Assembly (NCBI RefSeq): GCF_001428075.1
Contig: NZ_LMSI01000022.1
Coordinates: 186,001 to 250,000 of the forward strand
From: Arthrobacter sp. Soil764
Lineage (GTDB): Bacteria > Actinomycetota > Actinomycetes > Actinomycetales > Micrococcaceae
Length of the DNA: 64,000 nucleotides
Direction: 5' to 3'
Shown: positions 5,711 through 21,019 of the stretch, piece by piece
How the letters are laid out: each line of letters begins with the position of its first letter
Numbering within the stretch: position 1 is the first letter of the stretch
Translations under genes and position numbers: made by a program
Notes under the pieces: generated by a model
Database searches by the model: none
What the model saw: the letters and a program-made list of their open reading frames with translations, nothing else
Told to the model about the DNA's origin: nothing

Positions 5711-5776
5711 GCCATCATCCTGCTACCTGCCGCACGCTCCGTCCACCCCCGCCTATGTTTTGCCGGCCTCCCGGCG

Positions 5777-5806
5777 TAGACTGGATTTATTCGAATACAT
5801 ATTCGA
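5777..5806 (+). promoter_or_regulatory. promoter and LexA (SOS) box of the DUF6504-dnaE2 operon
   Basis: TCGAATACATATTCGA (5791-5806) matches the actinobacterial SOS box TCGAAC-N4-GTTCGA at 10 of 12 defined bases; the two differences are the paired inner bases, so the dyad is perfect. It is embedded in a 12-bp direct repeat (TATTCGAATACA at 5788-5799 and 5800-5811). A TAGACT -10 box at 5777-5782 would place transcription start near 5789, immediately before the box, so bound LexA would block the promoter. Confidence 0.8.
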
Positions 5807-5840
5807 ATACATGTCAGGGAGTACGGTCAGGGAGGCGCGC

Positions 5841-6191
5841 ATGGGCATGTTCAGCGAGTCCGTTGACGTGGTGTGTTCTGCTGCCGGACAGCCTGAATCC
5901 TTGACCTGGTCAGGAAAGGCGTACCTCGTCTGTGCCGAACCCGTCCGGTGGTATGAACGCCGGCAATGGTGGGCGGAGGACAGCCGGGCTCCGCTGGGAA
6001 GCGGACCAGGCGTAGTGGACCACGAAATCTGGCGGGTCCAGGTGCAGCCTGCCCCGGTGGCATCACGTTTCGCAGGACAGGGGGAACCTGGCGGCTCGGA
6101 TCCCCTCACCCTTGACCTGACCCGCCATATCCGCAGTGGCCGTTGGCGGCTGCTGCGGATCCATGACGCTCTTCGCCCTAAAACAGCATGA
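5841..6191 (+). CDS. DUF6504 family protein, partner of error-prone polymerase
   Basis: This 116-residue protein has the DUF6504 pattern: FSESVDVVC, a tryptophan-rich middle (LTWSGKAYLV, WYERRQWWAED), then HEIWRVQVQP, LDLTRHIRSGRWRLLRIHD. The family is commonly encoded next to dnaE2 and Y-family polymerase genes in Actinobacteria, but its role is unknown. ATG 5841 is preferred because GGAGG (5831-5835) lies five bases upstream; the in-frame ATG at 5811 touches the LexA box and has no ribosome site. Its TGA overlaps an ATG (ATGA at 6188-6191) that opens an 11-codon frame leading into dnaE2. Confidence 0.72.
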   Translation: MGMFSESVDVVCSAAGQPESLTWSGKAYLVCAEPVRWYERRQWWAEDSRAPLGSGPGVVDHEIWRVQVQPAPVASRFAGQGEPGGSDPLTLDLTRHIRSGRWRLLRIHDALRPKTA

Positions 6192-13193: not shown

Positions 13194-13373
13194 GTGTCTA
13201 CACCTGATGTAAGCAACGAGGCCGGTTCGCCCGCGAACAGCGTCACGGGCAGCAGCCGCGTGAAGCGCGGCATGGCCGAGATGCTCAAGGGCGGCGTCAT
13301 CATGGACGTCGTCAACGTCGAGCAGGCCCGCATCGCCGAAGATGCCGGTGCCGTGGCAGTCATGGCGCTCTGA
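13194..13373 (+). pseudogene. pdxS: truncated 5' copy of pdxS (59 codons, frame-broken by duplication)
   Basis: GTG 13194, behind TAGGGG, is where an Arthrobacter PdxS would start: [15 protein letters not shown]... then [13 protein letters not shown]... The frame runs normally for 59 codons to VAVMAL and stops at TGA 13371-13373. The following second copy of the same 111 bases is displaced by 143 bp, which is not a multiple of three, so the authentic N-terminus is not in frame with the rest of the enzyme. A -10 candidate TAGGAT lies at 13088-13093. Confidence 0.75.
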
Positions 13374-13512
13374 AGACCAGCGGAATCCGGGCGCCGGGTG
13401 ACGTGAAGCGCGGCATGGCCGAGATGCTCAAGGGCGGCGTCATCATGGACGTCGTCAACGTCGAGCAGGCCCGCATCGCCGAAGATGCCGGTGCCGTGGC
13501 AGTCATGGCGCT
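13259..13512 (+). repeat. 111-bp perfect direct repeat inside pdxS (13259-13369 and 13402-13512)
   Basis: The two copies are identical base for base, including all third codon positions, and are separated by 32 bp of sequence not otherwise found in pdxS. The period is 143 bp. Identity means the event is recent, or an assembly artefact. Confidence 0.95.
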
Positions 13513-14263
13513 GGAGCGTGTCCCGGCCGATATCCGTGCCCAGGGCGGCGTGTCCCGCATGTCCGATCCCGACATGATCGACCAGATCATTGATGCCGTC
13601 TCCATCCCGGTCATGGCAAAGGCCCGCATCGGCCACTTCGTCGAAGCCCAGGTTCTGCAGTCCCTCGGCGTCGACTACATCGACGAGTCCGAGGTCCTGA
13701 CCCCGGCCGACTACGTCAACCACATCGACAAGTGGAACTTCAAGGTTCCCTTCGTCTGTGGCGCCACCAACCTCGGTGAGGCCCTGCGCCGCATCAACGA
13801 AGGTGCGGCCATGATCCGGTCCAAGGGCGAGGCCGGCACCGGCGATGTCTCCAACGCCACCGGGCACATGCGCAAGATCCGCTCCGAAATCGCCAAGCTC
13901 GCCGCCCTGCCCGAGGACGAGCTCTACGTCGCGGCCAAGGAACTGCAGGCCCCGTACGAACTGGTCAAGGAAGTCGCCGCCGCCGGCAAGCTTCCCGTGG
14001 TGCTCTTCACCGCCGGCGGCATCGCCACCCCCGCTGACGCTGCCATGATGATGCAGCTCGGCGCCGACGGCGTCTTCGTCGGCTCCGGCATCTTCAAGTC
14101 CGGCAACCCCGCCCAGCGCGCCGCCGCCGTCGTCAAGGCCACCACCTTCTTCGACGACCCCGACGTCATCGCCAAGGCCTCCCGCGGCCTGGGCGAAGCC
14201 ATGGTGGGCATCAATGTCGACGAGATCCCCCAGCCGCACCGTCTCGCCGAGCGCGGCTGGTAG
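13403..14263 (+). CDS. pdxS: pyridoxal 5'-phosphate synthase, PdxS subunit (N-terminally altered)
   Basis: The 286-residue frame holds the whole (beta/alpha)8 barrel of the ribose-5-phosphate-dependent PLP synthase, including [25 protein letters not shown] with a catalytic lysine, and [16 protein letters not shown]. It works with the glutaminase PdxT, encoded about 6 kb downstream on the same strand. GTG 13403 is the likely restart, giving MKRGMAEM...; it has only weak ribosome-site character. Family members usually have 8-25 more residues before KRGMAEM. Activity may survive because the barrel is complete, with expression depending on reinitiation after the upstream fragment. Confidence 0.85.
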
Positions 14264-14502: not shown

Positions 14503-14566
14503 CCATCGATTGCTCCGTAACTGCCGTTTTGGGGCCTGAAAACGGCAGTTACTCAGCAATCGATGG
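14503..14566. repeat. 64-nt near-perfect palindrome (28-nt arms, 8-nt loop)
   Basis: The left arm (14503-14530) starts CCATCGATTGC and ends GTAACTGCCGTTTT. The right arm (14539-14566) is its reverse complement except for two opposed bases. The loop is GGGGCCTG. It sits between convergent genes four bases from the M3 peptidase stop. It could act as that gene's terminator, but such size and perfection is more like a REP-type mobile palindrome. Confidence 0.85.
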
Positions 14567-20308: not shown

Positions 20309-21019
20309 ATGACAAACCCCCCTTCTGCTGCTCCTGCGCGCGTGGGATCGGGCCTGCGGATTGGCGTCCTGGCCCTCCAGGGAGACTTCCGCGAGCACCT
20401 GCGCGCCGCCGAAGCCACCGGTGCCCGGGGTGTGGCTGTCCGCCGCCCCGGGGAGCTGGACGGCCTGGACGGCCTCATCATTCCCGGTGGCGAGTCCACC
20501 ACGATCGACAAGCTGGCGCGGGCTTTTGACCTTGCCGACCCGCTCCGCAAGTACATCGCCGAGGGCCTGCCTGTCTACGGCTCCTGCGCAGGGATGATCC
20601 TGCTGGCCTCTGATATCGCCGATCCCGCCACCGATCTTTCGGGTGCCCCCCAGCAGACGTTCGGCGGCCTGGACATCACTGTCCGCCGCAATGCCTTCGG
20701 CCGGCAGCGCGAGTCCTTTGAAACCGACCTGGACTTCAAGGGACTGGACTTCAGCGCCACCGAATCGGGCGTTGAACCCGTGCACGCCGTATTCATCCGC
20801 GGCCCCTGGGTGGAGCGGGTGGGCGCGGACGTGGAGGTCCTGGCCCAGGTGGAACCGGCGGACCCCGACCAGGCGTCCCACGCCGCATCGCTCCCGGGGA
20901 CGGCTAGAATTGTCGCAGTGCGTTCCGGCCAGCTGCTGGCCACCTCCTTCCATCCGGAAGTGACCGGCGAGAAACGCGTACACGAACTTTTTATCCGCAT
21001 GATCAGAGGAGAAGCGTAA
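20309..21019 (+). CDS. pdxT: pyridoxal 5'-phosphate synthase glutaminase subunit PdxT
   Basis: The 236-residue class I glutaminase has IPGGEST (58-64), the nucleophile Cys93 in [11 protein letters not shown] and the His/Glu pair in [10 protein letters not shown]. It feeds ammonia to PdxS for de novo PLP. It is slightly longer than usual (about 190-200) because of an Ala/Pro-rich N-terminal extension and a loop at [12 protein letters not shown]. It is separated from pdxS by murT-gatD and two other genes. Four bases separate it from yebC, which probably shares the transcript. Confidence 0.94.

Follow-up and report, generated by a model that had tools for sequence, protein, structure and literature searches.

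The 143-bp extra unit in pdxS of an Arthrobacter draft genome is most probably an assembly artefact

The pdxS locus as assembled

The window (the whole 64-kb stretch of DNA that was analysed) lies on contig C22 of a draft genome of Arthrobacter sp. Soil764. It contains pdxS, the gene for the lyase subunit of the ribose-5-phosphate-dependent PLP synthase (PdxS; SNZ/Pdx1), and pdxT, the gene for its partner subunit. In the assembled sequence the 5' end of pdxS is interrupted by a direct repeat with a short spacer, and the features of the locus are as follows.

13194-13373, forward strand: pdxS start and 59-codon frame, running in the assembled sequence from GTG 13194 to TGA 13371-13373
13259-13369, forward strand: repeat copy 1, taken as the putative 3' end of a left contig; its length is within the range of this assembly's contig-end overlaps
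13370-13401, forward strand: 32-bp spacer, an exact copy of C25:202396 onward, taken as a putative false tail or filler where the contigs were joined
13402-13512, forward strand: repeat copy 2, taken as the putative 5' end of a right contig
13403-14263, forward strand: pdxS barrel frame as assembled (286 aa), start GTG 13403, PdxS by NCBIfam
20357-20995, forward strand: pdxT (C22:206357-206995), TIGR03800 at 205.9 bits, with no internal stop in the match

The repeat had been reported in a preliminary description of the window, and it was reproduced letter for letter: two copies of 111 bp that are identical at 111 of 111 bases, with a 32-bp spacer and 143 bp from start to start. The frames were reproduced likewise, with GTG 13194 leading to 59 codons and the TGA at 13371, and the barrel running from GTG 13403 in another frame. 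This is the sole exact direct repeat of at least 24 bp in the window, and it far exceeds what chance would give. No ATG, GTG or TTG was found upstream of GTG 13403 in the frame of the barrel.

The barrel frame scored 480.2 bits against TIGR00343, above the NCBI cut-off of 438.45 that defines membership of PdxS, and 520.2 bits against NF003215 (cut-off 395). From GTG 13403 the whole TIGR00343 domain is kept (profile positions 1-287). The locus agrees with single-copy pdxS in relatives except at the 5' end as assembled, a discrepancy that is judged to be false. An inverted repeat lies 3' of pdxS (14503-14566, with 28-bp arms that are 93% complementary and 8 bp between them) and is perhaps a terminator between convergent genes. 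A search of the literature on PdxS, PdxT, Lys81 and the helix found no paper. The repeat and the frame break are thus confirmed in the assembly, but not in the chromosome.

Relatives, the spacer and a second pdxS

The two-copy pdxS pattern (143 bp apart, +/-15) was found in one of 206 genomes of the genus, that of the window itself, and in none of the 205 others. This search needs certain codons and was therefore supplemented by direct reading of the loci. A comparison with the pdxS of close relatives had been proposed in the preliminary description, and it was informative: in all 28 main-locus pdxS loci (L007-L034, representing 28 of 36 relatives searched within the genus) the 5' end is single and one frame passes straight through the join point. 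Among these loci, L017 (relative G030) has a frame break further downstream, and L026 (G028) aligns over only 266 of 308 residues.

It had also been suggested that the duplication is switchable, i.e., that pdxS is phase-variable and toggled by recombination between the 111-bp repeats. The geometry, and only the geometry, is in keeping with this: the direct repeats are close and perfect, and they break a frame. However, a switch presupposes a real duplication, and the pattern is confined to this one genome among the 206 of the genus. Excision would moreover be one-way; because it could not recreate the foreign spacer, a reversible switch would be unlikely even if the duplication were real. Such a switch is unsupported and can be regarded as scarcely credible.

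The description of the spacer as unrelated to pdxS stands, and was refined by matching the spacer to the rest of the genome. Positions 13370-13402 (33 bp, the last base of which belongs to repeat copy 2) exactly match C25:202396-202428. The C25 site is within an unrelated gene, antisense to its 234-aa frame, and no NCBIfam family matched that frame. The whole 33 bp is present in 12 relatives at 88-100% identity, and in the two of these that were fetched (G006 and G029) the stretch around it codes for the same 234-aa protein at 99% and 98% identity, and 31 of 33 and 33 of 33 bases are conserved, respectively. Because the relatives' copies sit in a stretch encoding the same protein, C25 is the native place of the 33 bp. 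The left junction shows no microhomology, and the right junction a single base (C 13402). A string spanning the junction had no match in a collection of genome contigs from which this genome's own record may be missing.

A spacer that exactly copies one other place in the genome could also have been left by a real and recent mutation, in which a replication fork switched template to C25, took about 32 bp from it and went back to a point 111 bp upstream, producing both the duplication and a templated spacer. The internal start at GTG 13403 would then preserve the entire TIGR00343 domain. If the duplication were real, pdxS would be expressed, if at all, from GTG 13403, PLP synthase would depend on re-initiation there, and reversion by recombination would be possible.

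The genome holds a second pdxS at C24:201488-202369 (L002:1457-2338), which beyond the 3' end of the repeat is identical to that of the window at 665 of 712 bases (93%). Positions 13268-13366 of the window, a stretch of 99 bp, are exactly common to both genes. The repeat has different borders, reaching 9 bp further left and 3 bp further right, and the leftward excess spans a site at which the C24 paralogue differs. The C24 gene lacks 45 bp, equivalent to 15 conserved residues and in frame, and this gap starts no more than 3 bp from the position where the window repeat ends. Both pdxS copies are therefore abnormal at one point, at the end of their shared stretch. The gap junction was found in this genome alone among the 206 of the genus, and the gap is probably another faulty join at the same repeat. 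The C24 gene lies upstream of a frame with a sub-cut-off match to the Rid family (TIGR00004, 51.5 bits, cut-off 106.25), and in 4 of 16 relatives' loci two adjacent frames of its neighbourhood were weakly matched (40-43% identity) besides pdxS.

A conserved short PdxS lineage without the 15 residues was considered and rejected, as the gap junction is restricted to this genome among the 206 of the genus. The 15 residues are unchanged in 14 of 16 further relatives' pdxS loci (L043-L058), including L045, which is cut further on by a contig end. In L057 (G031), a decayed copy, they are present but altered; the broken pdxS-like stretch of that locus (L057:4536-4818) consists of two pieces at 57% and 74% identity and is apparently a pseudogene. 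A broken pdxS copy in G030 (L058:4696-5121) has a different, larger internal gap of 37 residues, and the main pdxS of G030 (L017) is the frame-broken gene mentioned above; sequence errors are a possible cause of the faults in G030.

The two paralogues of this genome are identical at 106 of 108 bases in the shared stretch and at 659 of 705 bases downstream. Gene conversion or consensus collapse, as might be read from this identity, was rejected because eight pdxS pairs from six relatives are equally high (101-108 of 108 bases identical in the same stretch); high paralogue identity is normal in relatives and hence not in itself a sign of collapse. The same eight pairs carry the codons for the 15 residues, with 42-45 of 45 bases identical. 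As the paralogues are near-identical in this stretch, in the relatives too, a repeat impassable to short reads is to be expected here.

Were both lesions real, both pdxS copies would be truly inactivated, by the duplication in the window and by the 45-bp deletion in C24, and B6 auxotrophy would follow. The loss of 15 conserved residues at a junction peculiar to this genome is consistent with this reading. However, a single unresolved repeat accounts more readily for two lesions that lie within 3 bp of the same position in the paralogues, pdxT is uninterrupted, and a like paired fault is found in a pair of galE genes (see below). Double inactivation is accordingly held to be exceedingly improbable.

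Contig overlaps and other duplications in the assembly

The draft genome consists of 25 contigs (4.35 Mb) and is rated 100% complete. Of its 50 contig ends, 46 were compared, i.e., all but the far ends of C21 and C23 and the two ends of C18, which is N throughout. This gave 14 exact overlaps, with lengths of 97, 97, 98, 98, 100, 100, 101, 107, 107, 124 and 124 bp and shorter ones of 50, 50 and 20 bp. Eleven of the 14 are thus 97-124 bp long, and the 111-bp pdxS repeat falls within that range. Seven further pairs of contig ends have a common terminal stretch of 100-124 bp, and single N and N runs occur near several contig ends.

Perfect direct repeats no more than 2 kb apart were sought in 1,303,835 bases, a non-random sample of about 30% of the genome with the window included. 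Sixteen pairs of at least 90 bp were found, that of pdxS among them, and in nine of these (94-108 bp) exactly one N lies between the copies. The pairs are listed here by contig and start.

N-joined pairs on C24, C25 and C12: C24:180575 (108 bp), C25:219362 (101 bp), C12:5397 (101 bp)
N-joined pairs on C20: C20:243362 (99 bp), C20:391396 (101 bp), C20:392059 (94 bp)
N-joined pairs on C1: C1:840 (99 bp), C1:2729 (98 bp), C1:32417 (98 bp)
Remaining pairs: window (111 bp, spacer 32 bp), C21:1274 (120 bp, one base between), C1:1553 (137 bp, spacer 47 bp)
Remaining pairs, continued: C12:5772 (99 bp, spacer 32 bp), C12:6520 (158 bp, spacer 14 bp)
Remaining pairs, last two: 94 bp each, in an N-rich cluster at C20:391-392 kb

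There may be real repeats among the seven pairs outside the bare-N group. A contig end is less than 6 kb away from four N-joined pairs (C1:840, C1:2729, C12:5397 and C25:219362), and the other five are inside contigs, as is the pdxS join. A control scan of two single-contig relatives (200,000 bases each) gave one pair, of 59 bp, and no pair of at least 60 bp in the 400,000 bases. At C23:917-1072 (L110) a 78-bp unit is perfectly duplicated in tandem without a spacer; this may be real, or may be another unmerged overlap.

Two of the N-joined pairs fall in galE, the gene for UDP-glucose 4-epimerase (TIGR01179, 437.7 bits, scored on the copy of relative G006). The galE copies on C1 and C20 are identical at 430 of 441 bases, and both are interrupted at one corresponding position, where a unit of 98 or 99 bp is duplicated around a single N (C1:32417-32613, L141; C20:243362-243560, L176). 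The duplicated unit is single in all three relatives' loci that were fetched. This paired fault resembles that of the two pdxS copies, which are abnormal at one spot.

The pair at C12:5772-6001 (L192) comprises an identical 99 bp at 5772-5870 and 5903-6001, between which lie 31 bp (C12:5871-5901) copied exactly from C4, and then an N. The match on C4 is 34 bp long (C4:63109-63142), 3 bp of which come from the end of the repeat copy. The anatomy of the pdxS join, namely an overlap, about 31 foreign bases and the overlap again, therefore recurs at C12 with the N still in place.

The pdxS join is like a templated insertion with tandem duplication in that a short piece copied exactly from a distant locus is flanked by direct repeats. 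However, the pattern recurs once in the same assembly at an N-bearing join, which template switching would not produce, and nine more duplications carry a bare N. The length of the repeat fits the contig overlaps, and none of the other 205 genomes of the genus has the pattern. A real template-switching event is considered very unlikely.

Origin and significance of the extra unit

The overlap lengths, the recurring pattern, the foreign spacer with its parallel at C12, and the relatives without the two-copy form all argue that the 143-bp extra unit in pdxS is an assembly artefact, and this is held with near certainty. Misassembly was one of the options in the preliminary description, and it is borne out by the contig-end overlaps, the nine N-joined duplications, the foreign 31-bp spacer of C12 and the absence of the pattern from 205 genomes. 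The chromosome most likely has one copy and an ordinary, intact pdxS.

An artefact of this kind would most simply have arisen if assembly halted in the 99-bp stretch common to the pdxS genes of the window and C24, leaving two contigs with ends that overlapped by 111 bp. The contigs would then have been set end to end with the overlap unmerged, and about 32 bp of foreign C25 sequence would have remained, or been inserted as filler, between them, as at C12:5772-6001. The length of the foreign piece might suggest a short k-mer tip or a chimeric read, though this is a guess. Perfect identity of the copies had been read as a sign of recency; it would be expected if both are copies of one contig overlap.

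Several observations count against an artefact. The pdxS join has no N, unlike ten other pairs, and its spacer is real genome sequence, which true template switching could leave as well. The borders of the repeat do not coincide with the paralogue-shared stretch (13268-13366). The sample of the genome was non-random, the pdxS join lies inside a contig, and some of the end overlaps are shorter (50, 50 and 20 bp).

Mis-assembly at repeat sites, including tandem expansion in bacterial genomes, is described in PMC2397507; repeat expansion is counted among the main kinds of mis-assembly, and tallies of tandem insertions exist for bacterial assemblies (PMC2397507, PMC2864568, PMC9516828). The pdxS case is like such false duplication in having an extra, perfectly identical copy at a repeat which stopped the assembler. 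Five characteristics of false duplication were found: identical copies, a length in the overlap range, N-marked sister joins, a shared repeat and absence from relatives. The pdxS join differs in its 32 foreign bp and in the absence of an N, so that there is no gap mark to reveal it.

Translational restart after the first stop and impaired PLP synthesis had also been put forward; both would require a real duplication, and both are unsupported. The restart, auxotrophy and switch readings all need a true template-switching event, and each is without support of its own.

The pdxS duplication has no significance as biology, and its value is as a caution. A genome rated 100% complete contains a class of false tandem duplications by which ordinary genes are disrupted (galE twice, and pdxS), and at least the pdxS join has no N and resembles a mutation for which a donor locus exists. 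When the copies are perfectly identical, this, together with a length equal to the contig overlap of the assembly, offers a quick test for such cases.
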